Source: Meghimatium bilineatum (taxonomy: Eukaryota; Mollusca; Gastropoda; Stylommatophora; Philomycidae). Taken from it: a stretch of DNA of 64,000 bases. Shown here one piece after another: positions 15,934-64,000 of this stretch; within the stretch, counting starts at the first letter, position 1; each line of letters begins with the position of its first letter. The translations under genes were made by a program, and so were the position numbers. The notes beneath the pieces are model-generated. The model saw nothing but the letters and a program-made list of their open reading frames with translations. It did no database searches and was not told the origin of the DNA. The stretch lies in contig CM067319.1 in assembly GCA_034231615.1 (NCBI GenBank), forward strand, positions 2,500,501 through 2,564,500. The letters run 5' to 3'.

Positions 15934-18900
15934 TTATATTGTGTTGCCATGTACTTTCATAAGGTGAGCATAACACTTCTGCTCATCTGCACAGATTTCT
16001 AAACACACCCAGCAGAAGTAAGCTTGACAAGATGTACAATGCATTTTATTACAACCTACTATCTTCTCAATTCCAGTTCCGCAACTTGGACAAATTTTGC
16101 GGCAACTTTTATCTCCCTCCATCCAGATTTTCACACTGTCATCAAGTCCTCTTTTAGACGTGCTGCAGGTCATGCCAGCATGATATGCCGTGTGACAGGA
16201 AGTACATAAGCTTATGAAGCAAGATGGGCAATTAAATTCAACTCCATCATCGTTTGTTGTAATCTCGTAAATTGCAGAACAATCGGGAGTTAAACAGAAT
16301 TTATATTTGTCTAGATTTGTAGTCACAAAAGAACTGACAGATTTTTCCACCAATTTTTCTTTCGTTGTCCATCGTTTTTGCAGACAGAAAGTGAAATCTT
16401 TCCACACAAGAGGTACTTTGCAGTTCTCTTGGGCACAAACAACAGGAAAGCTTTTATTTTGTTCACAAACACTGACCTGTGATTTAAGACAGATATGGCA
16501 GTAACAGTGTCCACAGGCCTCAAGTCTATACATTTCAGAAAAGTCATCAACTGGGCATAAGCACACAACACAATCTGGCATATCTTTCTTAAGATTGGAA
16601 AAACCTGATTGTGCCAAAGAACGTTCTAGATCAGATATACTGGACAGTGCCTTATCTACACACTCAGATGGTCCAAATATGGACAACTTCTGCAGTTTGA
16701 AATCAATAAGAACATCGCTGAGAGCAAACTCGCTAACAAAATCATCATGCAAGTTGACATATTTTCTCAAAACTTCTTTCATCAAACCTCGAGGTTTCCC
16801 TTGTCCTCTAAGCAGAACATCCACTTGTTTCCCCTTGGCAAGTTTGCCAAGATATTTATCAATCTCTCCCATTGCCTGAGTAACACTCACCTCTTTCCCA
16901 TATACATGCACTTGTTCTGTGCGGTCATTTACAATGATTAAAATACCCAATGATGACTCAATTTTTTTCAGAGCTTCTTTTCCTTGTCGTTTGATGAGTC
17001 TTCTCAAAAGATCATTAATTTTACAATCAATTACTTCCCCTTCCAGTTCTTTCTGTAATAGTTCTCTGGCTTCAATCATGGAAGATGTTTTTTCTGACTT
17101 TATATCAAATGCAAAATTTCCATCTTTCAGCGATCGAATATTCACTTCAGCATCTTTGTGCATTTTTAAACCTGTGATTATTTCCTCAAAACGTTCTTTA
17201 CAAACATTCATGATGGATTTTGACACATTGAGAGTTGTTTTCAGGGTCAGACTTATCTCAACAGGTTGATTTTTTACTGTCAACACTCCTTGAAGTGCTC
17301 GGCAAGCTTTATAACCATCAGTCGGACTGTCAAAGTTAATAAATGCAATTTGATTCACAGAACTTGGTTTGGCTGACATCAAGTTCAATGTAAACTTATT
17401 TTGTTTCACATATTGTGAAAACATTCCTGACAAGTAATTTTTTATGCTCTCCAGATCTTTCTGTGACTCTTTTTCAACCTGTTCTCGGACAACAGTCACT
17501 TGAATGCTCTGGTTCAAGTTCTCATCATAATCCAAAATGTCCATCACTTTCTTTTTAATCTCCATTTCATTTGCACTTCCTGTGTTAAAGCAAACCAGAT
17601 CTTTCCCTTTTTCTGCCAATTTTAGTTCACACTGTCCACTTGAAAGGTGGATAATCTTGCCCATGAGACCCGCTGTTTCAATGGGTGGACACTTAATAAA
17701 TGCAGTGCCTTTTCCTTTTATAGGTCTTCGACACCAAGACAGCCGTGCTTCAAACTTGTTGACCACTTTTCTAAAATTTCTGTCAATTTTCAAAACTGCC
17801 ACTATTTCTGTATCATTTTGAGTCCCATGAACTGCTGCTTGTGCCTCGGCAAATGAACTGTATTTTATAAATCCCCATGGATTGGATTTTTTAAACCTCA
17901 CACATTCTTTAATACTGCCATAAGTTTCAAATTTTACTCTAATGTCTTCCTCTGTCATTTTTGGACTAGTATTTTTTATCAAAATTTTATTACTTTGACC
18001 TGGCATGAGCAGGGACTTCACACATCCTCCCTGACCAAGTATAACTCTAATCCCACTAGACTCTGTTCCTGACTTGTTCAAAATATCTAATTCATCTTCA
18101 CCAGATTCCAGAGCCTCCAGAGTCTCTTTCTTAACATTGATAAGTTGGTCAATAATAACCTGACTCATTGGGGAAGTTGAGAAAATGTTCAATGTTCCAA
18201 GATCACCATCTGCTTCTACAACCACAGCTTTCATTCCTGCATTTGCCAGACTGTCTTCCCAGACTCTTAATTGAGAGTATCTTATACCAACCAGTTTTCG
18301 GAAGATGGTTAATCCAACAGATTCACTATGAACCAACTCAATTCTCTGCTGTTTAGCCAAGTTAATGTCCACTTGTAGTTTACCTTCTCTGACAGCTTCC
18401 AGGATCCATTCTTCTTCAATCACAGTGATGCCTTTAATAAAATCTCTGGATGTTTTTGTAAACTCTGTATACACTATCCACTCTGGTTGAGAGTTGTGTG
18501 ATGACAAGGTTGAAGATGGATGCAGATGCACCTGTCTGTCCACCACCAAAGCATGATAACCTGCTCGGATGTGACCTAGGTAGTAACAAACTGAGGCCAT
18601 ATTTGCATCAAAGATGATCTTTCTTAACGAAAGTGCTGCAGATTCATCCAAAGAAAATGTGTATTCAAGTTTAATTTTGAGCTCATTATTCAAAATTGTG
18701 GCTACTTCTTTCACACACTGCTTTGTAAAGTTCATCACTTTATAGTTAATTCCGTGATCCTGACACCACTTGGACTGACTCTTGACAGGAATCTGAATCC
18801 AGGCCTTGTATACTTCCAGCCATGTAAAAATATCTCCGTAAGGGGATTCAAACTGGGTTTTACTTTTGGCTGATGATTGTGCTTCAGATTCTGTTAGACC

Positions 18901-21900
18901 TCTGTAAAATAAATTGGAACCATTTGTGATAAGAGAAGCCAGAACTATTGAATCATAGAGCAAATTTGTTCTGTTTCCATGATAAACAAGAAACCCTTCT
19001 GTTGGATGAAATGGCAGTTTAGATATCCAACGTCCAATGTCTGTGATGCCTTTAGAAGATAATGCTCCAAGGTTCCTGAGAGTGTTCAGAGCAGAGTCAA
19101 TAGCTTCCTGACTTGGAGGCTGAACAAAGTCATACAATTTGACATCAATTCCCAGTTCTGCAAGTTTCAATAGACTCTGCCCTAAAGGAACTCGAAGAAT
19201 TTCTGGTTCTGTGGATTGGTTCATATTTTTGTATCCATCCTCAGTAAATAAACGAAAGCATTTTCCACTTCCAGTCCGCCCAGCTCGTCCTTTCCTTTGG
19301 TCTGCTGAACTTTTACTAATTACATAAGTTCCTAACATACAAATATTTCTTTTACCATCAAATCTCATTTCTTTGGCAACCCCAGTATCAATGACATATT
19401 TTATTCCATCAATTGTAATCGATGTTTCTGCACAGTTTGTAGCAAAAACTATTTTTCTGATTCCTGGTTGCAATCTATCAAAAACTAGTCTTTGCTCATT
19501 TGGAGGTAGCTGTCCATGCAATGGAAAACATTTGAAGTCTGTTCTTCCAGCCATTTGTTTTGCAAATTCCTCACAGCAGCGCATAATTTCTACAGGTGAT
19601 GTTAAGAAAACCAGAATATCTCCTGGTCCTTCACTTCTGTGAACCTCTACTGCCTTTAGAACAGCCTTAGTTTCGAAATCTTCAAACTCCTTAGCAGAAT
19701 TTTCCATATTCGAATAAACTACATCCACTGGGAAAGTTCTGCCTGACACACGCAATTCTGGGCTGCTGTTGAAATACTTGATGAAGATTTTTGGATCAAT
19801 AGTTGCTGAAGTTATGACGACCTTAAGGTCTGGTCTGTTTTTCAGACAAACTTTAATCATACCTAGTAAAAGATCTGTATATATACTTCTCTCATGAGCT
19901 TCATCAACTATGATACAACTGTAATGGGACAAATTTGGATCTGTCAAGCACTCATTGAGAAGACAATGGTCAGTCTCAAAGACAATTTTTGTCTTGTCAG
20001 ACATTGTTTTCTTCAGCCCAGTTTTGTAGCCAACTAGTGCTCCAACTTTACCAGCCATTTCTTTTGCAACACGTTCTGCAAGAGTGATTGCTGCCACTTT
20101 CCTAGGCTGAGTGCATACAATCAAACCCCGACCAGCTAGGCCAGATTCATAAATGTATTGGGCCATTTGTGTGCTCTTACCAGACCCTGTCTCCCCAAGG
20201 ATTATTGATACTTGTTCCTGGTATACCTTTCTGACAATATCTTCTCGTCGTGCATAAATAGGCAGAGCTGCTGCCAACCGCACACACTCAACTCCAACAC
20301 TCTGAAGCAAATCTGTTATCTCCTCAGGATCTGTTGTGCTAGGATCCCAGTTTTTAGCTTTTGTAATCAATGAATCTTTTCTTGAACAAAATGTATCTTT
20401 TTGCTTGGCAACCTCCTTCACCTTGTCTAACAAAGCCAGTTCTTCAATTCTGCTATCATCATCATCACTCTCAGTGGAGCTGGAAGATTTCATAACTTTC
20501 AAAGCTTGTTCATACGTCTCCATCTTTTTCTGATGTTCTTCTAGCGTTCTTTTTGTCTTTCTGTTGATCTCCTCTATGGCTTTATTAATCTCAGCTTGCA
20601 TGCGTTCAGATTTATAATTCTGATCTTTATTAGGAGTTGCCGCAACTTCCACATCAGAACAACGTATGCACACATCATCCAAACTGGAAGAATTCAGTTG
20701 TTTTTTTATTTTTTTTGAGTCTGCTTTACTAGCAGCTACAATCTCACAACGAGTTTGTGATGTCTCACTAATAAATGAGTTCTGAATCAGTTCAAAAAAA
20801 CCGTCTTGGATAATTCTAGTGAAAAGTTCATTGAGACTTGCTACATTAGGTAGGACTTTTTTCACAACAATATACAATTTTTTTGGAACTTGTTTTGATT
20901 TGTCGACATTTTTTTCATCATGTTTTCTGTGTTCACTGTTTTTTTCCTGTTTATGTTTAGAAATAGCACTCTCTTGCTTCTTCTCAACTTTCTTTCTGGT
21001 GACCTCATCTATGACTTTATTAGTATCAGCTTGCATGCATTCAGATTTAGAATTCTGATCTTTCTTAGGAGTTGCCACAACTTCCACATTAGAACAACGT
21101 ATGCTTACATCATCCAAACTGGAAGAATTCAGTTGTTTTTTAATCCTTTCTGAAGCTGACTTACTGGGTGCCACAAGCTGACAACGTGTTCGTAATGTCT
21201 CACTAATAAAAGAGCTCTGAATCATTTCAAAAGACACATTGTGGATAATTCTAGTGAGAAGTTCATTCAGACTTGCTACATTAGGTAGGACTTTTTTTAC
21301 AACAACAGACAATTCTGTTGGAACACCAACACTTTTTTCTTCAGGTTTTTTGTTTGCATTAGATTTTTCTTGTTCATGTTTAGAAATAGGACTCTCTTGC
21401 TTCTTCTCAATTTTCTTTCCGGTGATCTCTATGGCTTTATTAATCTCAGCTTGTACGCATTCAGATTTAGAATTCTGATCTTTCTTAGGAGTTGCCACAA
21501 TATCCACATTAGAACAACGTATGCGCACTTCATCTACATTGGAAGAATTCAGTTGTTTTGATATCCTTTTTGAATCTGCCTTACTGGGCGCTATAAGCTC
21601 ACAACGAGTTTGTGATATCTCACTAATAAAAGAGTTCTGTATCAGTTCAAAAGAAATGTCTTGGATAATTCTAGTGAGAAGTTCATTTAGACTTGCTACA
21701 TTAGGTAGGACTTTTTCCACAACAACATACAATTTTGTTGGAACTTGTTTTGGTTTGCCCTGATTTATGTGGTCTAGTTTCCTCTGTTCACTTATTTTTA
21801 CCTGTACATTGTTAGAATTAACACTTTCTAGCATCTCCTCCACTTTTTTGCGCTTGCTTTTTGGTGGAACAACCTTGGTGGGTGACATGCTGGTCTCGTT

Positions 21901-23802
21901 TTCCTCATTGGTGGCTAGCTGGCCTTTAATATTTGTTTCCCCTTCAACACCACAAATATCACATAACACATCTGTCTTCAAGGCTTTTTTCAGCTTTCCA
22001 CAAAGATTTTTGATCATATATTTGCCCAGTTGTTTACTACTGGCATGAATTTTAACTGCCAGACTTCCTTGTCCTTCACTGCAAATGATAGAATCATCAA
22101 CAAACTCTATAAACGACTTCTCATTAGTGCTCATATTACATTCTATAGCATCTTTAAGACTGGCACCATCTTTAAAAGATGTCATTATGTGTACACTAGC
22201 CTTTGTGATGCGAATTGAAGGTAACGTCTTCTCAGTTTCTTGGTCTGGTGTAGGATCATTCGAAGGGGGTTTTTTCCCTTTCTTTTTTCCTGTAAAAGGA
22301 GCAAACAATTTTTTAGCATTTCTTTTTGTATTGGATGCTGATCCAGCATTTTTATTGCCAAGATGGTCTGTAGAAGTTTGGGAGTTATCAGTCATTCTCT
22401 TTCCCGCTTCTGATATAAAGGTTTCCTCTAAATTCTCAAGATTGTTAAGATCAGATGTGCTTTTAAACTTTCCTCCACTTTTTTCCAAAGACAAGTTTTT
22501 TCCTTGGTTACCTGTCTTTCCTTTTTTGCGTCTGCTTGTTTTGCTTCCCAATGTTTCACTTGCAGTGCTAGTTACACTATCCGGATCCGATACATTAGAC
22601 ACACTTCTTTGAAAAGGAACATTTGTTGGAATTCCAGTTTTAAATTCGTGTCCAGATGTTGCACCTTTTAAGACATCCTTATCACTTGAAAAAACTCCCA
22701 CATATTGCAAGTTAGGTGGATAATGTTTGTCTCTTGGGGTTTTATTAGTTTCATGTGCTTTTTGGTTCTCTCCAGGCATGGTAGATAAATTTTGATGATT
22801 TGAGTCCAATGTAGGTCTTTTCTTATGAGACTGAATATGACCTGGTTGACTTTCTTCCTCTGATCTACATGTCTGTTCTACTTTTTTCCTTCCCTTATTT
22901 TTGCCTCCAATATTAGGAGGAAGTTTTCCATAAGGAGGTGGAGGGTCTTCTGCATTTTTATCCATAGAGTTTGATGTCTGTCTTGTAGAATATTCAGCCC
23001 CTTTCTGATCACTTTGATACTTTGGAGGCCTTTCAAATTCATAATATTTCTGATGACCAGATTGGCTGTGATTAGAATTTAAAGGCTGAGCATGAAAATA
23101 ATTTTGACTTCTATTAGCACCATCATATCTCAGAGAATGATCTCTGTCAGCAAAGTGTAGATGCTCATACTGTTGGCTGTAAACATGTCCATCCCGTCCT
23201 GGACCAGTGGGATGTTGGCTGTAAGCATGTCCATCCCGTCCTGGACCAGTGGGATGTTGGCTGTAAGCATGTCCATCCCATCCTGGACCAGTGGGATGTT
23301 GGCTGTAAGCATATCTATCCCGTCCTGGACCAGTGGGACGTTGGCTGTAAGCATGTCCATCCTGTCCTGGACCAGTGGGATGTTGGCTGTAAGCATGTCC
23401 ATCCCATCCTGGACCAGTGGGACGTTGGCTGTAAGCATGTACATCCCGTCCTGGACCAGTGGAATGTGCTGGTTGTCTGGCAACATAATCATGTCCCTGT
23501 TGTATTGGATAATTGTATTCTTGCGGGTGATATATAGGTGAAGGTTGTGAATGTCTATTGCGATCAGAGACAATTTGTGGTTGGATAACATTTACAAGCA
23601 CTTGATGTTGAGGATATTGATGTGGTGGTGGATCAGGCGGATGATAGAAATTGGGATCGGGAGAAGGGAATCGATATTGCTGATCTCTAATTTCAGAAGG
23701 AAAGTTAGGTCTTGAAGGATTCTGGTTGTTCAAATTAAGACCATGATATCTTTGTCCAAAGTCTCTTTTATCCCTATCTCTGCCTTGTCCCTGCTGTGAC
23801 AT
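15934..23802 (-). CDS. DEAH-box RNA helicase / RBR ubiquitin ligase fusion, gene 1
   Basis: A single 2622-codon frame. Residues 1-680 are low-complexity, rich in Y, P, Q, H, G, K and S, with a 14-residue repeat at ~115-212. An RRM-like module is near 550-640, and a ~140-residue module occurs three times at ~688-1105. The helicase core has GETGSGKST (1203), DEAH (1300-1303), SAT (1332-1334), AETSITI and QRKGRAGR (1502-1509), then the DEAH-family C-terminal domains. An RRM ([14 protein letters not shown]) is at ~1938-2010, followed by KH-like sequence. An RBR unit closes the protein: RING1 from C2411, IBR near 2500, RING2 from C2571 with the predicted thioester cysteine C2584 in VGCNKMHC. The architecture resembles plant DEAH11/DEAH12 but is ~900 residues longer. 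The start is supported by an in-frame TGA seven codons upstream (23821-23823). Predicted roles are ATP-driven RNA remodelling and HECT-like ubiquitin transfer; substrates and biology are unknown. Confidence 0.95.
20490..21760 (-). repeat. In-gene triplication of a ~140-residue module
   Basis: Three coding units start with [20 protein letters not shown] or close variants at about 21742, 21322 and 20887, a spacing of ~420-435 bp. Each continues through SFISE, a CE(L/I)(I/V)A block, KKQLNSS and RCS(N/D)V, then a charged linker ending near INKAIE. The predicted strand-helix-strand-strand-helix-strand order suggests a ferredoxin/RRM-like fold, which is inference. Gene 2 has one unit that begins like unit 1 and ends like unit 3. 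Confidence 0.9.
23161..23465 (-). repeat. Coding 42-bp minisatellite, 7 copies
   Basis: Seven 42-bp units encode [14 protein letters not shown]-type 14-residue repeats near residues 115-212 of gene 1. Variants are W/Q/R at position 4 and R/H near the end. The period preserves frame, so copy-number change would lengthen or shorten the protein without breaking it. Residue content (G, P, Y, Q, S, H) resembles prion-like, condensate-forming segments. Confidence 0.95.
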
Positions 23803-24312
23803 GATTAGATTACTGTGTCGTCAGTGTGTTAGAAATACAAATATTGGTACAAACCAAACTTCATACAATTTACAATAAATCTTCAGATTTACACATTGGT
23901 ACAAGCCATAAACTATTTCTTCTAATGAACTTAAATGATGAGTCTGCTGTAAAGTTGATTTACTATTAATAAATCGTAATCACAGAATGCAATCATTCAT
24001 AAACATTTAGAATTCAATAATTCATAAACATTTAGAATTCAATCATTCATAAACATTTAGAATTTAGAATTTACAAAAATTTGGTTGCTTTTGAATCATT
24101 GTCATTGTGGCAGATTGATTTGATTCTAGTCCCATAAGCTTTTAAAAGTGTGGTCTTTATGTGGATAACAGTCTCAAATATGGTCTTTGCTGTGGCTAAG
24201 TCTCAAGTGTGGTCTCTGCCGTGGGTCTCAAGTGTGTGTTACTACTTGATTGAATGCTGTTGAAAGATTGAAGGATATCATAAAAATGTAATCAATAAAT
24301 CAAACGGTTAAT
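23803..24312. other. 5' flank of gene 1
   Basis: Non-coding; no TATA box I would defend. Reading on the minus strand, a possible 3' splice site (ttctaacac, then gacgacacag) ends at 23813, ten bases before the ATG, so an upstream non-coding exon is possible. A 25-bp repeat (attcataaacatttagaatt) occurs three times at 23990-24070. Confidence 0.4.
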
Positions 24313-25668: not shown

Positions 25669-25704
25669 TATTATTTAAGATTATATCTTACGTTATTCAA
25701 AAAC

Positions 25705-26234: not shown

Positions 26235-27775
26235 TGTTGATTTAATTATTCATGTATTTATGTATTCATGTATTTATGTATTCATTCATGTATTTATAAT
26301 TCATGTATTTATATATTCATGTATTTATAATTCATGTATTTATGTATTCATGTATTTATGTATTCATGTATTTATATATTCATGTATTTATATATTCATG
26401 TATTTATGTATTCATGTATTTATATATTCATGTATTTATGTATTCATGTATTTATATATTCATGTATTTATATATTCATGTATTTATATATTCATGTATT
26501 TATATATTCATGTATTTATGTATTCATGTATTTATATATTCATGTATTTATGTATTCATGTATTTATATATTCATGTATTTATGTATTCATTCATGTATT
26601 TAAAATTCATGTATTGATGTATTCATGTATTTATATATTCATGTATTTATATATTCATTCATGCATTCATGCATTCATGTATTTATGATTCATGTATTTA
26701 TGATTCATGTATTCATGTATTTATATATTTATGTATTCATGTATTCATGTATTGATGTATTCATGTATTGATGATTCATGTATTTATGTATTAAAGTATT
26801 CATGTATTTATGTATTTATGTACTCATGTATTTATGTATTTATGTATTCATGTATTTATATATTCATGTATTTATGTATTCATGTATTTATGTATTTATA
26901 TATTTATGTATTTATATATTTATGTATTCATGTATGTATATATTTATGTATTCATGTATTTATATATTTATGTATTCGTGTATTTATATATTTATGTATT
27001 CATGTATTCATATATTCATGTATTTATGCATTCATGTATTTATATATTCATGTATTTATGTATTCATGTATTTATGTATTCATGTGTTATGTATTCATGT
27101 ATTTATGTATTCATAATTCATGTATTTATGTATTCATGTATTTATGTATTCGTGTATTTATATATTCATGTATTTATGTATTCATGTATTTATGTATTCG
27201 TGTATTTATATATTCATGTATTTATGTATTCATGTATTTATGCATTCATGTATTTATGTATTTATGTATTCATCTATTTATGTATTCTAGTATTCATATA
27301 TTCATGTATTTATGTATTCATGTATTTATGTATCCATGTATTTATGTATTCATTCATGTATTTATATTCATGTATTTATTTATTCATTCATGTATTTAAA
27401 ATTCATGTATTGATGTATTCATGTATTTATATATTCATGTATTTATATATTCATTCATGCATTCATGTATTTATGATTCATGTATTGATGATTCATGTAT
27501 TCATGTATTTATGTATTCATGTATTTATATATTTATGCTTTCGTGTATTTATATATTTATGTATTCATGTATTTATATATTTATGTATTCATGTATTTAT
27601 ATATTTATATATTTATGTATTCATGTATTTATATATTTATGCATTCATGTATTTATATATTCATGTAATTATGTATTCGTGTATTTATATATTTATGTAT
27701 TCATGTATTTATGTATTCATGTATTTATGTATTCATGTATTTATGTATTCATGTATTTATGTATTCATGTATTGA
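26235..27775. repeat. 16-bp satellite-like array, about 95 copies
   Basis: Roughly 1.54 kb of tatttatgtattcatg and tatttatatattcatg units with occasional shorter units. The period of 16 rotates through all three frames, so long YLCIHVF-type open frames appear in every forward frame. They are artefacts. The array could form unstable AT-rich structure and is a likely place for assembly length error. Confidence 0.95.
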
Positions 27776-28560: not shown

Positions 28561-28569
28561 TCCAATCTG

Positions 28570-35888: not shown

Positions 35889-37520
35889 ATATATATGAAA
35901 CGTGCGGGCCGCATGGCCCTTTGCAAGCATGTATGCGACCCAAACAAAGGGTCTCATTTAATGCCGAAAATTTCAATTTTAATACTTTAAACTGCGTATA
36001 TAAAACAGGTACGGTGCCACGTCTAAGAAAACAATACGGCTATTTTAAGCTAGTAAGGGTTTTCTATCTATGAAAATTGACAACATTGACCGGAAGTAGC
36101 ATGACTGTTATTGCCATGTTAAAATTTTAAAACACTAATAAATTGTATCTTGTGGAATCGTGCCGGTGACTATATTATTTGTTTTTATGAAGTACTGCGT
36201 AAACTGACACCGTTTAAAATGGATACAGCACTTTCAGCTAAGACGAAAAGAACACTTGATGAAGAAAGGCGAGTATTTCAAGAAAAATGGGAACTACAGT
36301 ATTTTTGTACAATGGTAAATGGAAAGATACATTGTTTAGTATGCAATAACATCATTACCACGCCAAAAGAGTACAACTTAAAAAGACATTATGCAACTAA
36401 CCATAGATCCTGCGATAAATATTAAGGCTTACTGCTTGTTTAAAGACTCAAGGGATTGAAGGCTAACTTGATACAGCAACAGACATGTTTTACAAAAATA
36501 TATCAAGCCAATGTCGCTTCTGTTACTTCAAGCTATGAACTCAGCCGAATGGTCGCCATGAGTGGGAAATCTTAGTGAAGGAGATTTCGTAAAGCATTGC
36601 CTTGTAAAAGCTGCTGACATTGTGTGCCCACAGAAAGCACAGTTATTTAAGAATATTTCGTTAACCAGGAATACTGTTGCTGGACGGATTGATGAAATGG
36701 CAGATGATTTGAAACAACAGTTGAAGGCTGCATCATCCAAATTTGAACATTTTTCTATTGCTATTGATGAGACCGTTGACATCACTGGAATAGCACAGCT
36801 TGCAGTTTTTATTAGGGCCTGTGACAGTAAATTTAATATTTATGAAGAACTGATTAAACTAATCCAAATGCATGACACTACAGCGAGCGAAGACAACTTT
36901 GAAAAAGTCGAGCAGATTCTGCATGACTATTGACTATGATTTGAGTAAACGTGTATGTTTATCTACTGACGGTGCTGCGAATATAGTTGGCAGACATAAT
37001 GGTGTTGCTGCCAAGTTGCGAACAAAAATTGAGAACTCGTATCCAGATTCATCATTTGCACATTTTCACTGCATTATACATCAGCACAATTTGTGTTCAA
37101 AGACTTTAAAATTGAATCACGTGCTTAGTGTGGTCACAAAAACAATGAACTTTATCAAATACAATGCTCTCAACCATCGTCAATTCAGTCAGCTATTAGA
37201 AGACATGGATAGTCAGTTCACAGATGTTCCATTCTACACAGCAGCCCGTTGGTTGTCGTGTCACAAAGTGTTGAAATGATTTTATTTGCCGAGACCAGAA
37301 ATTACTTTATTTTTGGAGAGGAAAAGTAAAAACAGTGATAAAATAAAAGATGAAAATGGAATCCAGGATCTAGCGTTTGCTGTGGACATTACTGCACATT
37401 TAAGTGATCTTAATTTGAAATCACAAGGCAGAAACACGCATCACTCAGTTGTACGACGACATCAAGTGTTTCATTACAAAACTAAGCTTATGGTACTCAA
37501 TTCCGACCACTCCTATGTCT
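35889..37520 (+). mobile_element. Dead hAT transposon (GTF2IRD2/Charlie-like transposase)
   Basis: Reading left to right: 36218-36424 has a C2H2/BED-like finger (CLVCN...LKRHYATNH); 36455-36933 has GDFVKHCLVKAADIVCP, LTRNTVAGRI, SIAIDETVDITGIAQL; 36930-37279 has STDGAANIVGRHNGV and FHCIIHQHNLCSK; 37280-37480 has the distal part. This order and the DETVD...DGA...HCIIHQ motifs are those of hAT transposases related to GTF2IRD2-type proteins. Several stops and frame changes break it and the C-terminal dimerisation region is missing. I found no terminal inverted repeats, so the edges are estimates. Confidence 0.85.
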
Positions 37521-51173: not shown

Positions 51174-51633
51174 AATTATTTTTATCAAAAACGTATTGTT
51201 CATTTGGATTGATCATTTGAAGTTAGGTTTAGAATAATAATGTCGCTATAGAAATATTTTTTTATCAAAGAAATGTGATCCAGTATCAAAGATACCTTAT
51301 TTAACCTATATTAAAAAAAAGTTAATCTAAATTATAAACAACCGCTGGATTATGTAGATGCTTACATCTCACAGCTGATTATTAAATATAAAGGCATGAC
51401 CCTCACGGTAGAATGTGCACCGTTCTAAAAGTAGTTGTTTCCACTGTACATTTGTATAAAGCAATGTTACATATGGAAATTCCCGTTTAGCACCAAATAT
51501 TATTTTTCCTGAACTTAGAATTATGTGAAATCAAAAACGGCTATTGACTCGATTTCAAGTCACAAGTCAGAGGCACGTCTCAATATTTACAGACAGTAGG
51601 TGGCACTAAGCATATTACCTTCTGCAAGTCTAT

Positions 51634-52134
51634 GTGAGAATGAATCTGAAAGCGAAATATTTTACTGAGCATAACATTGCTATAAAGATTTATCAATACT
51701 TCTGCAGAGAGCGTAAAAAGGGACATCTTTATTGTTCTTTATCAAATCCTGAGAAGAGAACAATGCATATTTTAGGTTTGTGTAAACGTTCATTTGATCG
51801 AATAGTGGAAGCAAGCGGATATTTATTGCCAACAAATTCACGAAAGCAAGGAAGGAAAGAAAAGATAGACAGTTTCGATAAGGACCTAGTAAAAAGAGAA
51901 ATATGTAGAATGTTTGATAAAAACGAAGAAGTGACACTTAGAAAGGTGAAGATTTGGCTGAAAACTAATAACGACATTGAAATATCAAAAACTTTATTAT
52001 GGAAAACTGTAAGAAATGCAGGCTTCACCTTTAGAAAGTATGCTGGTGGAAAAAACATTATTTGTGAAAAGCCACATCTGGTAGCTCTTAGAAGCAAGTA
52101 TTTACGTGAAGGGAATGCGCGAGAATGGTTATGA
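51634..52134 (+). pseudogene. DD83E transposase, N-terminal DNA-binding part
   Basis: A 166-codon frame with a helix-turn-helix-like region (LGLCKRSFDRIVEASG; VTLRKVKIWLKTNNDIEIS followed by TLLWKTVRNAGFTFRK). It overlaps the catalytic frame by ~28 nt in a different phase; the sensible join is near 52100 (SKYLRE versus KGMRENGYDIVYLDETW). A single-base frameshift is the simplest reading, but a small intron cannot be excluded. Confidence 0.8.
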
Positions 52135-52912
52135 TATTGTGTATTTAGATGAAACTTGGATCAACGCTCATCATACAAATGAAAAGGAATGGCAGTTAGC
52201 AGTTGGAAGTATTAAAAGATCAGTACCAAGTAGTAAAGGGCAACGTTTGATAGTTGCACATGCAGGTAGCAGACATACTGGGTTGTTGCAGAATGCTCAT
52301 CTAATTTTCATTTCAAAATCCATTGACAATAGAGACTACCACTCCGAAATGAATGGGCACATATTCGAAGACTGGATCGAAAAAAGTATTCTTCCAATAT
52401 TAGATAGACCTTCTTGTCTGATAATGGACAATGCTTCATACCATAACGTAGTGAACGTAGAAGATAGAATCCCAACATCATCAAGTACAAAAGATGCAAT
52501 CAAAACGTGGCTCATAAAAGAACACATACCATTTACCGACAGGTACTTGAAACCCGAATTGCTTAACCTTGTAAAACAGACACAACGAACAAAGATATTT
52601 AAAATAGACAAGTTAATTGAAGAACATGGTCATAGATGTTTGAGACTACCTCCATATCATGCACACTTAAATCCTATAGAGCTAATTTGGGCAAAAGTTA
52701 AAGGACACGTAGCATCTACAAATACAACTTTCAAATTATGTGATATTGAGACTCTTACAAATCAGGCTCTATCAAATATACATAAAGACTACTGGGTGAA
52801 ATGTGAGGATCATGTGTTACGCCAAGAAGAGGAATATTGGAAAAAGGAAGGTTTGTTGTTTGTTCAGCCGAAAACAGTAATCGACCTATTTGACTCGTCT
52901 GATTATGAATGA
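52106..52912 (+). CDS. DD83E transposase, catalytic DDE part
   Basis: A 268-codon frame with the DDE triad: VYLDETW (first D), CLIMDNASYH (second D) and HLNPIELIWAKVK (E). Between the second D and the E lies an inserted segment with KEHIPFTDRYLKPELLN and FKIDKLIEEHGH. PPYHAHLNPIE is the usual IS630/Tc1 C-terminal box. All three acidic residues are present. The upstream DNA-binding half is in another phase. Confidence 0.92.
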   Translation: MKGMRENGYDIVYLDETWINAHHTNEKEWQLAVGSIKRSVPSSKGQRLIVAHAGSRHTGLLQNAHLIFISKSIDNRDYHSEMNGHIFEDWIEKSILPILDRPSCLIMDNASYHNVVNVEDRIPTSSSTKDAIKTWLIKEHIPFTDRYLKPELLNLVKQTQRTKIFKIDKLIEEHGHRCLRLPPYHAHLNPIELIWAKVKGHVASTNTTFKLCDIETLTNQALSNIHKDYWVKCEDHVLRQEEEYWKKEGLLFVQPKTVIDLFDSSDYE

Positions 52913-55470: not shown

Positions 55471-55703
55471 TCAATATACTAGTGTTTTCAATGTAATGAA
55501 CCAGTTTTAGGACACAGACTGTATTTCTTTTTCTGTGTCTAAGTCAGCACAGAACAGTTAGTTACCACACGCTGAAGGAAATGCTGAATAGCAGATTGAA
55601 GCACATATGGATGTGTTAAAAGTCCACTGATGATGATCTGATGTCTAACTAAATTTTTAACATAACCTCCTGACGCCATGATGATGAATTCTGACTCTTT
55701 ATA
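55471..55703. other. Non-coding, nothing recognised
   Basis: No supported feature. Confidence 0.4.
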
Positions 55704-55997: not shown

Positions 55998-56276
55998 TTG
56001 ATGGCATCAATGTTGACCCCTTTTGTCCAAACAATTCATAAAAATTCATTTTTTTCGATATGGCCACTTTAAATAAGAAAAACTGCATGGCTCCAATATG
56101 GCCACTTTAAATAAGAAAAACTGCATGACTCCAATATGGCCACTTTAAATAAGAAAAACTGCATGGCTCCAATATGGCCATTTGTCATAAGTAAAACTGA
56201 ATTTACTTAATAAATATTGACTTACAATTTGTATAGATACATATAAATGTCAAGTATACAATGCCTAATCTGGCAA
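55998..56276. repeat. ~42-bp tandem repeat, about 4 copies, and spacer
   Basis: Within 56055-56185, atggccactttaaataagaa plus aaactgcatggctccaat recurs. The rest is AT-rich spacer. Confidence 0.85.
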
Positions 56277-56366
56277 ATTGATTCATGAAAATGTCATGCA
56301 AGTTGGCACATTTTCTCAAAAGTTTATTTTATTAAATCTCAAGGTTTCCCTTATCCTATTTTAAAT
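56277..56366 (-). pseudogene. Fragment of a helicase-RBR gene
   Basis: About 85 bp align with 58312-58397 of gene 2 at roughly 80 percent identity by eye, in the same orientation. Shared words include catgcaagttggcacatttt and ctcaaaagtt. On the minus strand it corresponds to the [20 protein letters not shown] region just before the RBR domain, with a stop. Neither flank matches the gene. Confidence 0.8.
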
Positions 56367-56469
56367 GTGTGTAGTTAAATATGAAACAAGAATTGAATAA
56401 TAATAATATATTATATAATAATATCAAAACATATCTGTAACTAATACAAAACGAATACATACAAGTCTG
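56367..56469. other. AT-rich spacer
   Basis: Nothing recognised. Confidence 0.4.
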
Positions 56470-57195
56470 AGACCAGGCTCATACAAGTCTAAGATATGTG
56501 ATTCATGCAAGACACAAGTTTGAATCATACAAGTCTAAGAAATGTGATTCATGCAAGACACAAACAAATTTGAATCATACAAGTCTAAGATATGTGATTC
56601 ATGTAAGTAAAAAAAAAAGTAAAGTAACCCATAGCATTTATTAATGCCGTAGGGGTGTGAGATGTTAGCGATCTCACATTTCACAGGCTCTGCAAAATGA
56701 GGGCGGTAGCCATCTCCTCTCCCTCGCAGTCTTTACTTCCCGGATTAATCCGGTACCCATTTAAGGCTGGGTCGACCTGGGAGCCGTTGCGATCTGAAAA
56801 CATTTCCGCCACAGCTGGGGAATGAACCCATGACCACTCATATGCGAAGCCAGTGTGCTAACCACTGCGCTAACGCGGCTCCCTTGTAAGACACAAGTTT
56901 GAATCATACAAGTCTAAGAAATGTGATTCATGCAAGACACAAACAAATTTGAATCATACAAGTCTAAGAAATGTGATTCATGCAAGACACAAGTTTGAAT
57001 CATACAAGTCTAAGAAATGTGATTCATGTAAGACACAAGTCTGAGTCATACAAGTCTAAAGTACGTGATTCATGCAAGACAAAAATGTGACTCATGTAAG
57101 ATATAAGAAATGTGATTCATATAAGACACAAGTTTGAATCATACAAGTCTAAGAAATGTGATTCATGTAAGATATAAGAAATGTGATTCAAGCAA
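56470..57195. repeat. 46-bp minisatellite (caagtctaagaaatgtgattc), about 10 copies
   Basis: Units of gaatcatacaagtctaagaa plus atgtgattcatgcaagacacaagttt, with shortened variants. It is interrupted by a SINE at 56625-56882. Confidence 0.9.
56625..56882 (-). mobile_element. tRNA-derived SINE inside the 46-bp array
   Basis: On the minus strand it begins gagccgcgttagcgcagtgg (A box) with gggttcattcccc (B box) 40 bases on, then a body with ctcccaggtcgacccagcc and a T-rich 3' end. The bases tgtaag on both sides may be a target duplication. Confidence 0.85.
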
Positions 57196-57519
57196 GACAT
57201 AGCCTACTTATTGTTTGTTATGCTGCATTCTAATATCTAGGACATGGAATCTCCAAATCACAGGATCATGCCAATCAATGACATACAAATCAAAGACCAG
57301 GTCACATATAAGCAACCATCTGTGAGAATGTATCCAGACAATAAGTTTATCTACAGATTGTTTCCAGACATCAGTAAGTTTACCTTAACAGGGTAGGAAT
57401 GCCATAGAAAGTCAATTACTAAGTTAGCCTTCTAGATTATGTTAATTATATGGGCAAAAGTGGATCTACCATGGATGTTCCACAGTAACATTAGGTGTAT
57501 GTTTCAAAACAAGAGTTTA
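57196..57519. other. 3' flank of gene 2
   Basis: Non-coding; no AATAAA within ~300 nt past the stop on the minus strand, only a weaker AATAAG near 57208-57213. Confidence 0.4.
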
Positions 57520-60500
57520 TCAAATGAAGCTGCCATGTGCTTTTTTAAGGTGTTTATAACACTCCTGCTCATCTGCACAGATTTCTAAACACACCCAGCA
57601 GAAGTAAGCTTGACAAGATGTACAATGCATTTTATTACAACCTTCTATCTTCTCAATTACAGCTTTGCAATTTGGACAAATTTTGCGTCGACGTGGATCT
57701 TTATTTATCCAGAATTTTACACTTTCTTCAGGTCCATTTTTAGACATACTGCAGGTCATGCCAGAATGATATGCCGTGTGACAGGAAGTACATAAGCTTA
57801 TGAAGCAAGATGGACAACTAAATTCAACTCCATCATCATTTGTTGTAATCTCATAAATTACAGAACAATCGGGAGTTAAACAGAATTTATATTTGTCTAG
57901 ATTTGTAGTCACAAAAGAACTGACAGATTTTTCCACCAATTTTTCTTTTGTTGTCCATCGTTTTTGCAGACAGAAAGTGAAATCTTTCCACACAAGAGGT
58001 ACTCTGCAATTCTCTTGGGCACAAACAACAGGAAAGTTTTTATCTTGTGTACAAATAGTGACCTGTGATTTAAGACAGATATGGCAATAACAGTGTCCGC
58101 AGGCCTCAAGTCTATACATTTCAGAACAGTTATCAACTGGGCATAAGCACACAACACAATCTGGCATATCTTTCTCAAGATGGGAAAAACCTGGTTGTGA
58201 CAGAGAACATTCTAGATCAGAAATGCTTGACAGTGCCTTATCTACACACTCAGATGGTCCAAATAGGGACAACTTTTGCAGTTTGAAGTCAATAAGAACA
58301 TCGCTGAGAGCAAACTGGTTGATAAAATCATCATGCAAGTTGGCATATTTTCTCAAAAGTTCTTTCATCAAACCTCGAGGTTTCCCTTGTCCTCTAAGCA
58401 GAACATCCACTTGTTTCCCCTTGACAAGTTTGTCAAGATATTTATTAATCTCAGTTTTTGCTCGAGTGACATTTTCCTTTGTCCCATATACATGCACTTG
58501 TTCTGTGCGGTCATTTACAATGATTAAAATACCCAATGATGACTCAATTGTTTTCAGAGCTTCTTTTCCTTGTCGCTTGATGAGTCTTCTCAAAAGATCA
58601 TTAATTTTACAATCAATTACTTCCCCTTCCAGTTCTTTCTGTAATAGTTCTCTGGCTTCAATCATGGAAGATGTTGTTTCTGACTTTATATCAAATGCAA
58701 AATTTCCATCTTTCAGCGATCGAATATTCACTTCAGCATCTTTGTGCATTTTTAAACCTGTGATTATTTCCTCAAAGTTTTTTTTACAAACATTCATGAT
58801 GGATTTTGACACATTGAGAGTTGTTTTCAGGGTCAGACTTATCTCAACAGACTGGCCATGTACAAACAACACTCCTTGAAGTGCACGGCATGCTTCAAAA
58901 CCATCAGTCGGACTGTCAAAGTGTATAAATGCAACATGATTCACAGAATTTGGTTTGACCGACATCAAGTTCAATGTAAACTTATTTTGTTTCACATATT
59001 TTGAAAACATTCCCGACAAGTAATTTTTCATGCTCTCCAGATCTTTATGTGACTCCATCTCAACCTGTTCTCGGACAATAGTCACTTGAATGCTCTGGTT
59101 CAGGTTCTCGTCATAATCCAAAATTTCCATCACTTTCTTTTTAATCTCCATTTCATTTGCACTTCCTGTGTTAAAGCAAACCAGATCTCTTCCTTTGTCT
59201 GCCAATTTTAATTCATGGTGTCCATTTGAAAGCCAGATAATCTTGCCCATGAGATCCGCTGTTTCAATGGGTGGACACTTAATAAATGCAGTGCCTTTTC
59301 CTTTTATAGGTCTTCGACACCAAGACAGCCGTGCTTCAAACTTGTTGACCACTTTTCTAAAATTTCTGTCAATTTTCAAAACTGCCACTATATCTGTATC
59401 ATTTTGAGTCCCATGAACTGCTGCTTGTGCCTCGGCAAATGAACTGTATTTTATAAATCCCCATGGATTGGATTTTTTAAACCTCACACATTCTTTAATA
59501 CTGCCATAAGTTTCAAATTTTACTCTGATGTCTTCCTCTGTCATTTTTGGACTAGTATTTTTTATCAAAATTTTATTACTTTGACCTGGCATGAGCAGGG
59601 ACTTCACACATCCTCCCTGGCCAAGTATAACTCTAATCCCACTATACTCTGTTCCTGACTTGTTCAAAATATCTAATTCATCTTCACCAGATTCCAGAGC
59701 CTCCAGAGTCTCTTTCTTAACATTGATAAGTTGGTCAATAATAACCTGACTCATTGGGGAAGTTGAGAAAATGTTCAATGTTCCAAGATCACCATCTGCT
59801 TCTACAACCACAGCTTTCATTCCTGCATTTGCCAGACTGTCTTCCCAGACTCTTAATTGAGAGTATCTTATACCAACCAGTTTTCGGAAGATGGTTAATC
59901 CAACAGATTCACTATGAACCAACTCAATTCTCTGCTGTTTAGCCAAGTTAATGTCCACTTGTAGTTTACCTTCTCTGACAGCTTCCAGGATCCATTCTTC
60001 TTCAATCACAGTGATGCCTTTAATAAAATCTCTGGATGTTTTTGTAAACTCTGTATACACTATCCACTCTGGTTGAGAGTTGTGTGATGACAAGGTTGAA
60101 GATGGATGCAGATGCACCTGTCTGTCCACCACCAAAGCATGATAACCTGCTCGGATGTGACCTAGGTAGTAACAAACTGAGGCCATATTTGCATCAAAGA
60201 TGATCTTTCTTAACGAAAGTTCTGCAGATTCATCCAAAGAAAATGTGTATTCAAGTTTAATTTTGAGCTCATTATTCAAAATTGTGGCTACTTCTTTCAC
60301 ACACTGCTTTGTAAAGTTCATCACTTTATAGTTAATTCCGTGATCCTGACACCACTTGGACTGACTCTTGACAGGAATCTGAATCCAGGCCTTGTATACT
60401 TCCAGCCATGTAAAAATATCTCCGTAAGGGGATCCAAATTGGGTTTTACTTTTGGCTGATGATTGTGCTTCAGATTCTGTTAGACCTCTGTAAAATAAAT

Positions 60501-63500
60501 TGGAACCATTTGTGATAAGAGAAGCCAGAACTATTGAATCATAGAGCAAATTTGTTCTGTTTCCATGATAAACAAGAAACCCTTCTGTTGGATGAAATGG
60601 CAGTTTAGATATCCAACGTCCAATGTCTGTGATGCCTTTAGAAGATAATGCTCCAAGGTTCCTGAGAGTGTTCAGAGCAGAGTCTATAGCTTCCTGACTT
60701 GGAGGCTGAACAAAGTCATACAATTTGACATCAACTCCCAGTTCTGCAAGTTTCAATAGACTCTGCCCTAAAGGAACTCGAAGAATTTCTGGTTCTGTGG
60801 ATTGGTTCATATTTTTGTATCCATCCTCAGTAAATAAACGAAAGCATTTTCCACTTCCAGTCCGCCCAGCTCGTCCTTTCCTTTGGTCTGCTGAACTTTT
60901 ACTAATTACATAAGTTCCTAACATACAAATATTTCTTTTGCCGTCAAATCTCATTTCTTTGGCAACCCCAGTATCAATGACATATTTTATTCCATCAATT
61001 GTAATTGATGTTTCTGCACAGTTTGTAGCAAAAACTATTTTTCTGATTCCTGGTTGCAATCTATCAAAAACTAGTCTTTGCTCATTTGGAGGTAGCTGTC
61101 CATGCAATGGAAAACATTTGAAGTCTGTTCTTCCAGCCATTTGTTTTGAAAATTCCTCACAGCAGCGCATAATTTCTACAGGTGATGTTAAGAAAACCAG
61201 AATATCTCCTGGTCCTTCACTTTTGTGAACCTCTACTGCCTTTAGAACAGCCTTAGTTTCGAAATCTTCAAACTCCTTAGCAGAATTGTCCATATTCGAA
61301 TAAACTACATCCACTGGGAAAGTTCTGCCTGACACACGCAATTCTGGGCTGCTGTTGAAATACTTGATGAAGATTTTTGGATCAATAGTTGCTGAAGTTA
61401 TGACGACCTTAAGGTCTGGTCTGTTTTTCAGACAAACTTTAATCATACCTAGTAAAAGATCTGTATATATACTTCTCTCATGAGCTTCATCAACTATGAT
61501 ACAACTGTAATGGGACAAATTTGGATCTGTCAAGCACTCATTGAGAAGACAATGGTCAGTCTCAAAGACAATTTTTGTTTTGTCAGACATTGTTTTCTTC
61601 AGCCCAGTTTTGTAGCCAACTAGTGCTCCAACTTTACCAGCCATTTCTTTTGCAACACGTTCTGCAAGAGTGATTGCTGCCACTTTCCTAGGCTGAGTGC
61701 ATACAATCAAACCCCGACCAGCTAGGCCAGATTCATAAATGTATTGGGCCATTTGTGTGCTCTTACCAGACCCTGTCTCCCCAAGGATTATTGATACTTG
61801 TTCCTGGTATACCTTTCTGACAATATCTTCTCGTCGTGCATAAATAGGCAGAGCTGCTGCCAACCGCACACACTCAACTCCAACACTCTGAAGCAAATCT
61901 GTTATCTCCTCAGGATCTGTTGTGCTAGGATCCCAGTTTTTAGCTTTTGTAATCAATGAATCTTTTCTTGAACAAAATGTATCGTTTTGCTTGGCAACCT
62001 CCTCCACCTTGTCTAACAAAGCCAGTTCTTCAATTCTGCTATCATCATCACTCTCAGTGGAGCTGGAAGATTTCATAACTTTCAAAGCTTGTTCATACGT
62101 CTCCATCTTTTTCTGATGTTCTTCTAGCGTTCTTTTTGTCTTTCTGTTGATCTCCTCTATGGCTTTATTAATCTCAGCTTGCATGCGTTCAGATTTATAA
62201 TTCTGATATTTCTTAGGAGTTGCCGCAACTTCCACATCAGAACAACGTATGCACACATCATCCAAACTGGAAGAATTCATTTGTTTTTTTATTTTTTTTG
62301 AGTCTGCTTTACTAGCAGCTACAATCTCACAACAAGTTTGTGATGTCTCACTAATAAATGAGTTCTGAATCAGTTCAAAAGAAATGTGTCGGACAATTCT
62401 AGTCAGAAGTTCATTCAGACTTGTTACATTAGGTAGGACTTTTTCAACAACAACATACAATTTTGTTGGAACTTTTGTTGATTTTCTACCCGTTTTATCT
62501 TTGGGTTGTCTGTGTTCACTAATTTTCTCCTGCAAATTTATAGAATTAGTGCTCTCAAGCATCTCTTCAATTTTGTTTTGCCTGATTTTGCTTGGATGAA
62601 TCCTGTTGTTTGACATCCTTATATCCTGTTTCCCATTGGTGACTGAATGTTCCTTTACCTTTGTTTCTCCTTCAACACCACAAATATCACATAACACATC
62701 TGTCTTCAAGGCTTTTTTCAGCTTTCCACAAAGATTTTTGATCAGATATTTGCCCTGTTGTTTACTACTAGCATGAATTTTAACTGCCAGACTTCCTTGT
62801 CCTTCACCGCAAATGATAGAATCGTCAACAAACTCTATAGACGACTTCTCATTAGTGCTCATATTACGTTCTATAGCATCTTTAAGACTGGCACCATCTT
62901 TAAAAGATGTCATTATGCGTACACTAGCCTTTGTGATGCGAATTGAAGGTAAAGTCTTCTGAGTGTCTTGGTAAGGTTTAGGATCATTTAAAGAGAGTTT
63001 TTTCCCTCTAAAAGAAGCGACATCCATTCTAGCATTTCTTTTTATATTGAATGCTGATCCAACATTTTTATTGCCAAAATTGTCTCTAGAATTTTGGGAA
63101 TTATCAGTCATTCTCTTTCCCGCTTCAGATGAACATCTTTCCTCCAGTTCCATTGGTTTTTTTAAATCAGGCGTGCTTTTAAACATTTCTCTACTACTTT
63201 CGATAACAGAATGGTAATCTGTCTTTCCTTTTTTCTGCTGTTTGTTTTGTGACAATTGACTAACAGTTGTAGTCTCACTTTTTGGGTAAGATGCATTAGA
63301 CTTGTTTCTTTCATTTGTTAGCATTCCAGATTTCAATTCTTGTTTGGATTTTGTTGTTCCTTTTATGACATATTTATCACCTGGAAATACTTCCACACAC
63401 TGCAAGTCAGATTCTATATTGTGAGTCTTCTCAACTCGGGCTTGTGTTTTCTGCATTTGATGCTGTCTCTCTCTTGGAGAATAAGTTTCACCAACTTTTG

Positions 63501-64000
63501 AGTTTCCTCCTGTCATGGAAGATACATTTTTATGATTTAATTCCATGGAAGGTCTCTGATTATGGAGCTGAGCCCGGCTTGATTGGCCAACTCTGAAGTT
63601 TTCACTCTTGTTGCTAGCGCCACTACCAGAAGAACTTGATCTATGTCGTTCAGTTTGCATTTTTCCATTATTGCATTTTTGACCTGGTCTATATTCTTTC
63701 TCTGATCTACGTGTACGTGGTACTTTTCTACTTCCCTTATCTTTATCTCTAATATTAGGAAGATGTTTCTCATAAGGAGGTGGAGGCTGTTCAATATTAG
63801 TATCCATAGAGTTTGATGTCTGTCTTCTAGAATATTCAGTCCCTTGATGGTGACATTCAAATTGTTTTTTCTGATGGCCAGATTGGCTGTAATTAAAATT
63901 TAAAGGTTGAGCATGAAAATAATTTTGACTTCTTTTGGAGTCATCATGTCTAAGAAGTTTATCTCTGTCAACAAAGTGTTGCTGCACATGATGCTGATTG
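57520..64000 (-). CDS. DEAH-box RNA helicase / RBR ubiquitin ligase fusion, gene 2 (N-terminus off window)
   Basis: The frame is open from the right edge to a stop at 57520, at least 2155 codons; the true start lies beyond 64000. A low-complexity N-terminal part corresponds to gene 1 from about residue 218 on. One RRM-like module and one copy of the 140-residue module (62150-62480) precede the helicase core, with GETGSGKST at 61782 and DEAH at 61491, SAT and QRKGRAGR intact. HA2/OB-type, RRM and KH-like regions and the RBR follow, with the predicted catalytic cysteine of EGCNKMHC at about 57639. The helicase core differs from gene 1 at only about a dozen residues, whereas RING1, RING2 and the N-terminus differ more. 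All catalytic motifs are intact, so both copies are probably functional. Confidence 0.94.
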   Translation of the reverse strand, partial: NQHHVQQHFVDRDKLLRHDDSKRSQNYFHAQPLNFNYSQSGHQKKQFECHHQGTEYSRRQTSNSMDTNIEQPPPPYEKHLPNIRDKDKGSRKVPRTRRSEKEYRPGQKCNNGKMQTERHRSSSSGSGASNKSENFRVGQSSRAQLHNQRPSMELNHKNVSSMTGGNSKVGETYSPRERQHQMQKTQARVEKTHNIESDLQCVEVFPGDKYVIKGTTKSKQELKSGMLTNERNKSNASYPKSETTTVSQLSQNKQQKKGKTDYHSVIESSREMFKSTPDLKKPMELEERCSSEAGKRMTDNSQNSRDNFGNKNVGSAFNIKRNARMDVASFRGKKLSLNDPKPYQDTQKTLPSIRITKASVRIMTSFKDGASLKDAIERNMSTNEKSSIEFVDDSIICGEGQGSLAVKIHASSKQQGKYLIKNLCGKLKKALKTDVLCDICGVEGETKVKEHSVTNGKQDIRMSNNRIHPSKIRQNKIEEMLESTNSINLQEKISEHRQPKDKTGRKSTKVPTKLYVVVEKVLPNVTSLNELLTRIVRHISFELIQNSFISETSQTCCEIVAASKADSKKIKKQMNSSSLDDVCIRCSDVEVAATPKKYQNYKSERMQAEINKAIEEINRKTKRTLEEHQKKMETYEQALKVMKSSSSTESDDDSRIEELALLDKVEEVAKQNDTFCSRKDSLITKAKNWDPSTTDPEEITDLLQSVGVECVRLAAALPIYARREDIVRKVYQEQVSIILGETGSGKSTQMAQYIYESGLAGRGLIVCTQPRKVAAITLAERVAKEMAGKVGALVGYKTGLKKTMSDKTKIVFETDHCLLNECLTDPNLSHYSCIIVDEAHERSIYTDLLLGMIKVCLKNRPDLKVVITSATIDPKIFIKYFNSSPELRVSGRTFPVDVVYSNMDNSAKEFEDFETKAVLKAVEVHKSEGPGDILVFLTSPVEIMRCCEEFSKQMAGRTDFKCFPLHGQLPPNEQRLVFDRLQPGIRKIVFATNCAETSITIDGIKYVIDTGVAKEMRFDGKRNICMLGTYVISKSSADQRKGRAGRTGSGKCFRLFTEDGYKNMNQSTEPEILRVPLGQSLLKLAELGVDVKLYDFVQPPSQEAIDSALNTLRNLGALSSKGITDIGRWISKLPFHPTEGFLVYHGNRTNLLYDSIVLASLITNGSNLFYRGLTESEAQSSAKSKTQFGSPYGDIFTWLEVYKAWIQIPVKSQSKWCQDHGINYKVMNFTKQCVKEVATILNNELKIKLEYTFSLDESAELSLRKIIFDANMASVCYYLGHIRAGYHALVVDRQVHLHPSSTLSSHNSQPEWIVYTEFTKTSRDFIKGITVIEEEWILEAVREGKLQVDINLAKQQRIELVHSESVGLTIFRKLVGIRYSQLRVWEDSLANAGMKAVVVEADGDLGTLNIFSTSPMSQVIIDQLINVKKETLEALESGEDELDILNKSGTEYSGIRVILGQGGCVKSLLMPGQSNKILIKNTSPKMTEEDIRVKFETYGSIKECVRFKKSNPWGFIKYSSFAEAQAAVHGTQNDTDIVAVLKIDRNFRKVVNKFEARLSWCRRPIKGKGTAFIKCPPIETADLMGKIIWLSNGHHELKLADKGRDLVCFNTGSANEMEIKKKVMEILDYDENLNQSIQVTIVREQVEMESHKDLESMKNYLSGMFSKYVKQNKFTLNLMSVKPNSVNHVAFIHFDSPTDGFEACRALQGVLFVHGQSVEISLTLKTTLNVSKSIMNVCKKNFEEIITGLKMHKDAEVNIRSLKDGNFAFDIKSETTSSMIEARELLQKELEGEVIDCKINDLLRRLIKRQGKEALKTIESSLGILIIVNDRTEQVHVYGTKENVTRAKTEINKYLDKLVKGKQVDVLLRGQGKPRGLMKELLRKYANLHDDFINQFALSDVLIDFKLQKLSLFGPSECVDKALSSISDLECSLSQPGFSHLEKDMPDCVVCLCPVDNCSEMYRLEACGHCYCHICLKSQVTICTQDKNFPVVCAQENCRVPLVWKDFTFCLQKRWTTKEKLVEKSVSSFVTTNLDKYKFCLTPDCSVIYEITTNDDGVEFSCPSCFISLCTSCHTAYHSGMTCSMSKNGPEESVKFWINKDPRRRKICPNCKAVIEKIEGCNKMHCTSCQAYFCWVCLEICADEQECYKHLKKAHGSFI

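Follow-up and report, generated by a model that had tools for sequence, protein, structure and literature searches.

The analysed window, a stretch of 64,000 nucleotides of the Meghimatium bilineatum contig CM067319.1, contains two very long stop-free frames on the minus strand, which we call genes A and B. Gene A is a whole single-frame ORF of 2,628 codons from stop to stop (15934..23820) with its first ATG at codon 7 (23800-23802), and the remaining five frames over the same interval carry 99, 100, 150, 180, and 271 stops. Gene B (57520..63999, minus strand) is open at the window edge, so the 2,159 codons visible in the ORF scan are a minimum, and its 5' end, start, and promoter lie beyond that edge. 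The two genes are paralogues. The preliminary description had called them a tandem pair; there are indeed two copies on the same strand, but they are not adjacent, being 33.7 kb apart, and transposon ORFs and minisatellites were the only features identified in between. A comparison of the 2-kb flanks of A with the 2-kb 3' flank of B gave no common match better than E 0.14. AATAAA-type signals were noted 225 and 402 nt past the stop of A and 878 and 1,187 nt past that of B. Directly before the ATG of A, inspection of the sequence also found a CAG preceded by CTAAC, and a 5' UTR intron ending just upstream of this ATG is possible.

The N-terminal part of A is of low complexity (residues 7-530; 22231..23802, minus strand), with residues 7-240 rich in P (13.2%), Q (11.5%), G (10.7%), and H (9.0%), and it includes a coding minisatellite of about seven copies of a 42-nt unit, or 14 residues (23171..23467). 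The very long low-complexity N-terminus described earlier is thus real, and it may be condensate-like. It is followed by a conserved N-terminal domain (residues 530-650, 21871..22233, in A; 62599..62961 in B), for which positions 21892-22233 of A gave no Pfam match. Next comes a module of about 90 residues, present in three copies in A (residues 690-785, 830-924, and 975-1069; 21466..21753, 21049..21333, and 20614..20898) and in one copy in B (62194..62481), all on the minus strand. AlphaFold models of this module (four sequences) and of the KH-RBR region (two sequences) reached mean pLDDT values of only 41 and 34, probably owing to too little alignment depth. A pattern of strands and helices in the module is no more than a hint. 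We do not claim that the module is homologous to the conserved domain before it (hhalign probability 0.3%, E 0.19), and an LSM match in module copy 2 (PF01423, E 0.0013) was not accepted, its 18.9 bits lying below the cut-off of 23.4.

Downstream of these modules, both predicted proteins join a DEAH helicase, an OB fold, an RRM, DEAH11-type KH domains, and a RING1-IBR-RING2 (RBR) in a single open frame. The helicase core with its OB fold (A residues 1195-1810, 18391..20238; B 59977..61824; minus strand) scored above the cut-offs of PF00270, PF00271, and PF07717 in A as well as in B, and the RRM (A residues 1946-2002, 17815..17985; B 59401..59571) matched PF00076. Three KH matches follow (A residues 2197-2402, 16615..17232; B 58204..58818), to PF24638, PF24641, and PF24471 in order. 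The third is above cut-off in A and B, the second passes it in B only, and the first stays below it in both (E 0.004 and 0.0006). The chain closes with the RBR (A residues 2411-2628, 15937..16590; B 57523..58176), in which PF01485 was matched in two stretches in each copy. DEAD, Helicase_C, OB_NTP_bind, RRM_1, KH_DEAH11, and IBR were accordingly all above the curated Pfam cut-offs in both genes. The helicase ATPase motifs are intact in A and B, as is the GCNKMHC motif of RING2 (at A 2589 and B 2120) with its catalytic cysteine (Cys2590, 16051-16053, and Cys2121, 57637-57639). ORFs, Pfam, and motifs therefore agree with the initial account of two long single-frame genes with helicase motifs, an RRM, and a complete RBR. 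The domains that it listed are present; the KH domains, the triple module of A, and the mosaic divergence described below had been left unmentioned.

By its architecture, the pair fits the Helicase (Plant I, DEAH11/12) subfamily of RBR proteins, and the matches to DEAH11-named KH models, in order, bear out the earlier assignment to a DEAH11/DEAH12-type family. Excerpts from two papers report this subfamily from plants and animals (PMC2904391, PMC3904995), the former describing it as ancient and often lost. In the plant members as these excerpts present them, namely Arabidopsis DEAH11/DEAH12 and soybean GmHELRP1/2, a DEAH helicase lies N-terminal to a C-terminal RBR, as in A and B. The soybean proteins are longer than 1,700 residues, and their helicase domains and RBR lie about 750 residues apart (PMC3904995), whereas this gap is about 600 residues in A (1810 to 2414). 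About 1,200 residues precede helicase motif I in A and at least 739 in B. A also has a low-complexity start, and the repeated module differs in number between the copies. HA2, which is named for the plant members, is represented here only by a sub-threshold HA2_N match (E 0.21 in A, 0.18 in B). Among molluscs, a study of the clams Venus verrucosa and Chamelea used as a nuclear marker a gene named DEAH12, termed an ATP-dependent RNA helicase and picked as single copy with Busco (PMC8765752), in contrast to the two copies found here. No functional study of an animal Helicase RBR member was found in the open-licence library that was searched.

Outside the subfamily, the nearest solved chain by sequence to the helicase of A was DHX8/PRP22 (PDB, E 1e-125), and the HrpA model matched A residues 1180-1808 with 438 of 723 bits, under its curated cut-off. 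The nearest solved RBR was that of the Ariadne protein ARIH2, with its RING2 cysteine in register with that of A. DHX8/PRP22 and HrpA helicases are not known to carry an RBR, nor is ARIH2 known to carry a helicase. Unlike Ariadne proteins, A and B showed no Ariadne domain C-terminal to the RBR among their Pfam matches, and the chain of A ends 12 residues past the last cysteine of the RING2 region (A 2616 of 2628). Searches of viral contigs with the KH-RBR stretch of A gave four pattern matches and those of genome contigs with the A/B KH-RBR alignment gave 162, none of which was confirmed. Of 50,697 phage records, A matched three (two annotated as HrpA, one as HrpB) through its helicase part only.

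Divergence was computed pairwise between A and B, without an outgroup, and was found to be strongly mosaic. Synonymous divergence is far lower in the motor-RRM core (dS 0.006-0.025) than in either the N-terminus (dS 0.28) or the KH-RBR end (dS about 0.1, dN/dS 0.6-0.85). Four-fold sites differed at 3/389 positions in the core versus 17/112 on the N-terminal side (Fisher p 2e-9) and 9/206 on the C-terminal side (p 0.005), the latter contrast coming from few differences. The near-identical tract covers about residues 1009-2050 of A (17671..20796) and 59257..62379 of B, both on the minus strand and with approximate borders, and contains an identical run of 575 nt that was matched by none of 2,000 codon permutations. 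Divergence outside the core is itself uneven, as dS is only about 0.09 in a patch at A 481-634. This contrast between core and ends fits gene conversion of the motor between the copies. It could instead be an artefact of assembly or polishing, in which the reads of one copy corrected both and the true divergence is more even: reads cross-map where paralogues are most similar, and divergence changes abruptly at the tract borders, about A residue 1009 (inside a module) and A 2051. We regard such an artefact as improbable, since scattered differences persist within the tract (e.g., at A residues 1064, 1135, 1921, and 1960) and those of the helicase favour synonymous sites, as in real sequence (6/375 versus 5/1,218; dN/dS 0.25, Fisher p 0.025). 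That the helicase and RBR parts might be separate abutting genes is scarcely credible, because neither copy has a stop or a frame change between them and plant members are described with the same order (PMC3904995). Single open frames and in-frame indels instead favour one protein spanning both parts, as first proposed.

Relaxed selection on both domains had been named at the outset as evidence against a functional fusion; it is not seen in the helicase, while the ratios of the RBR (dN/dS 0.85, p 0.60) and of the N-terminus (0.81, p 0.17) are indistinguishable from 1. Together with differences spread almost evenly over the three codon positions (94/92/109 for the N-terminus, 44/45/52 for KH-RBR), these ratios would suit a decay of one or both copies, pseudogenes in the making with neutrally drifting ends. 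Such decay appears quite improbable against frames of 2,628 and 2,159 codons without a stop. All 12 internal indels of the two aligned stretches (A 215-690 and A 1070-2628) are in frame, so neither gene looks like a pseudogene. In addition, 27/28 cysteines and 7/7 histidines of the RBR region of A are kept in B, although 35/218 residues differ (hypergeometric p 0.04 for the cysteines), 12 of the 35 inside the 21-residue IBR-RING2 linker. This clustering, the raised ratios at both ends, the N-terminal minisatellite, and the module number of three versus one could also point to conflict-driven diversification, antiviral or anti-transposon, with a converted motor and with ends and module number under positive selection. 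Of 41 overlapping 100-codon windows, five had a nominal dN/dS above 1 (nine more were undefined, dS being zero), but no larger segment exceeds 1, and relaxed constraint explains the same ratios; we consider this possible but unlikely. A broader version, in which A and B are RNA-guided ubiquitin ligases of a defence family with a constant motor and variable ends, is unlikely as well: the two would share one gene-converted RNA motor, and conflict of the host with parasites or transposons would drive apart the ends that read RNA and substrate, among them the repeated N-terminal module with its changing number of copies.

Taken as a whole, we favour, with a probability of about 0.62, a duplicated protein-coding Helicase (DEAH11/12) RBR pair acting in RNA-directed ubiquitin transfer, with gene conversion of the motor. 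The domains would suit a protein that couples the binding of RNA with the transfer of ubiquitin, and our best guess from the sequence is that A and B are RNA-guided ubiquitin ligases. The roles in RNA quality control or innate defence suggested at first are conjectural. The RRM, the KH domains, and perhaps the N-terminal modules would anchor the protein to RNA or RNP, and the DHX8/HrpA-like DEAH motor would move or strip RNA. The C-terminal RBR would then pass ubiquitin from an E2 through the RING2 cysteine to proteins on the bound RNA. Through gene conversion, the copies would retain a common motor and yet differ in their N-terminal modules and KH-RBR end. As the gene family, though little studied, had already been described, the case itself is modest; what the pair adds is the nearly identical helicase-to-RRM core between a diverged N-terminus and a diverged KH-RBR end. 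In the Helicase RBR subfamily (PMC2904391), a single chain unites the unwinding of RNA with the ligation of ubiquitin. A duplicated pair of this kind, intact and diverged at its ends but hardly in its motor, would serve as a natural experiment on the parts that set the targets, and would make RNA-guided ubiquitination testable.

The preliminary description had proposed two long single-frame genes on one strand, and a frame scan with translation confirmed that both were stop-free on the minus strand. Gene A (15934-23820) contained 2,628 codons, with the first ATG at codon 7, and the remaining five frames of this stretch held 99 to 271 stops. Gene B (57520-63999) was open at the window edge, with 2,159 codons seen. 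When A was compared with the window by tblastn (E 0.01), the matches were confined to A itself and B, with no sign of a further copy or of a fragment. The intact helicase motifs, RRM and RBR described earlier were found in each gene. Pfam models above their curated cut-offs were the same in A and B (DEAD, Helicase_C, OB_NTP_bind, RRM_1, KH_DEAH11, and IBR), and the motif QRKGRAGR was present in both. When the stretch from the RRM to the RBR was scanned alone, three DEAH11-named KH models were found in the order first, second, third, of which the third passed the cut-off in A and the second and third in B. The closest solved chain to the helicase was DHX8 (E about 1e-125, among the best 60 of the 95 distinct sequences that reached E 0.01), and that to the RBR was ARIH2 (8 distinct sequences matched). 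The RING2 cysteine was in register with the ARIH2 alignment, and we take it to be the catalytic one.

The divergence between A and B was uneven along the gene (Nei-Gojobori estimates, A residue numbering). At A 230-760, dS was 0.281 and dN 0.228; this N-terminal part itself varied, with dS up to 0.49 in 100-codon windows and about 0.09 in a patch at A 481-634. dS and dN fell to 0.016 and 0.004 in the helicase (A 1170-1700), 0.006 and 0.004 at A 1701-1940, and 0.025 and 0.006 in the RRM (A 1945-2010), and were 0.104 and 0.064 in the KH region and start of RING1 (A 2011-2430) and 0.110 and 0.094 in the rest of the RBR (A 2431-2628). Of 389 four-fold sites in the core (A 1020-1990), 3 differed; N-terminal to it (215-760) the count was 17 of 112 (Fisher p 2e-9) and C-terminal to it (1991-2628) it was 9 of 206 (p 0.005), the totals for both sides being sums over segments. 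Neither the identical run of 575 nt nor the 2,700-nt interval with 16 differences (A 1142-2041) was reached by any of 2000 codon permutations. Because protein-level selection alone does not lower dS, gene conversion between the copies is the simplest reading of the near-identical core; the main rival is that assembly polishing with cross-mapped reads produced this identity.

A module of about 90 residues, N-terminal to the helicase, occurred in three copies in A (spacing 435 and 420 nt) and in one copy in B. Codons 35-95 of the B module matched the third A copy at 179 of 183 bases (156 for the first copy, 155 for the second), and its first 34 codons were slightly closer to the first copy (92 of 102; second 80, third 86). 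Since the early and late parts favour different A copies, the border of the near-identical tract seems to fall within the module. Further upstream, the low-complexity start of A (residues 7-240) consisted of 55% Q, N, S, G, P, and Y and 11% I, L, V, F, M, W, and C, and a 42-nt minisatellite lay within this stretch.

The 2-kb flanks on each side of A and the 2-kb 3' flank of B had no shared match better than E 0.14, so the similarity is confined to the gene. The unlike flanks, together with the unequal number of modules, favour the view that A and B are paralogues over the view that they are haplotypes of a single locus. In nucleotide alignments blind to codons, from which the module stretch between the two aligned parts was excluded, all 10 internal gaps between A 215-690 and B 1-506, and both of those between A 1070-2628 and B from 603 on, were multiples of three. 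Together with the lack of stops in either copy, this indicates that the frame is being kept.

Relaxed selection on both domains, which the preliminary description had named as an observation against its proposal, was not seen in the helicase (dN/dS 0.25, below 1, p 0.025; Fisher tests versus 1 on rounded counts); the RBR part (A 2431-2628) showed no significant departure from 1 (0.85, p 0.60). The ratio was 0.61 at A 2011-2430 (p 0.043), and the N-terminus did not depart significantly from 1 (0.81, p 0.17). Five of 41 overlapping windows nominally exceeded 1, and 9 more were undefined with dS zero. In RBR domains, Cys and His residues bind zinc. Although 35 of 218 residues differed at A 2411-2628, B kept 27 of the 28 Cys (hypergeometric p 0.04; the lost Cys 2573 sits in the linker preceding RING2) and all 7 His, and had one Cys without counterpart in A (position A 2427). 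This 21-residue linker accounted for 12 of the 35 changes. A catalytic frame that is kept while the parts connecting it change would fit relaxed constraint as well as functional divergence.

Transposon-like frames and repeats were also seen elsewhere in the window. A LINE-type endonuclease and reverse transcriptase frame (12050-15277, plus strand; one in-frame stop at 12701-12703) was convergent with gene A, whose stop codon lay about 660 nt away. A second, different LINE (39043-42961, plus) had its endonuclease and reverse transcriptase split over several frames and, judged by eye, an RNase H-like end. Two overlapping frames at 51610-52912 (plus) encoded a Tc1/mariner-like transposase (DDE_3, E 3.5e-15; HTH_Tnp_Tc3_2 below cut-off, E 0.0048), and two others at 36562-37279 (plus) resembled a hAT-type transposase remnant on visual inspection, without a Pfam match at E 0.01. 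A 36-nt minisatellite of about 34 copies (6488-7705) contained long open frames on both strands because its unit is divisible by three, and an 8-nt unit (TATTTATG, TATTCATG) repeated in tandem over 1.5 kb (26247-27773) also yielded long open frames; in both, these are most likely not genes. Within a minisatellite downstream of gene B lay a tRNA-derived SINE-like sequence recognized by eye (56640-56890, minus), for which Rfam and ARAGORN gave no report.

In passages of PMC3904995, soybean members of the Helicase (Plant I, DEAH11/12) subfamily are described as longer than 1,700 residues; their DEAD, Helicase_C, and HA2 domains lie about 750 residues ahead of the RBR, and the subfamily's occurrence in animals is cited there. 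In extracts of two other papers, clam DEAH12 serves as a nuclear marker (PMC8765752), and DEAH11 is merely one entry among sorghum B-chromosome candidates (PMC12849586). Judged from sequence, the A/B pair shows the defining features of the subfamily as tested, HA2 aside, which matched below cut-off only, and appears to be a new case of an already known kind of gene. In these two proteins, the RRM, the KH region, and perhaps the N-terminal modules would bind RNA, the DEAH core would drive ATP-powered movement, and the RING2 cysteine would receive ubiquitin from an E2 and hand it to proteins on the bound RNA. Their role may lie in RNA quality control, in defence or in something else.
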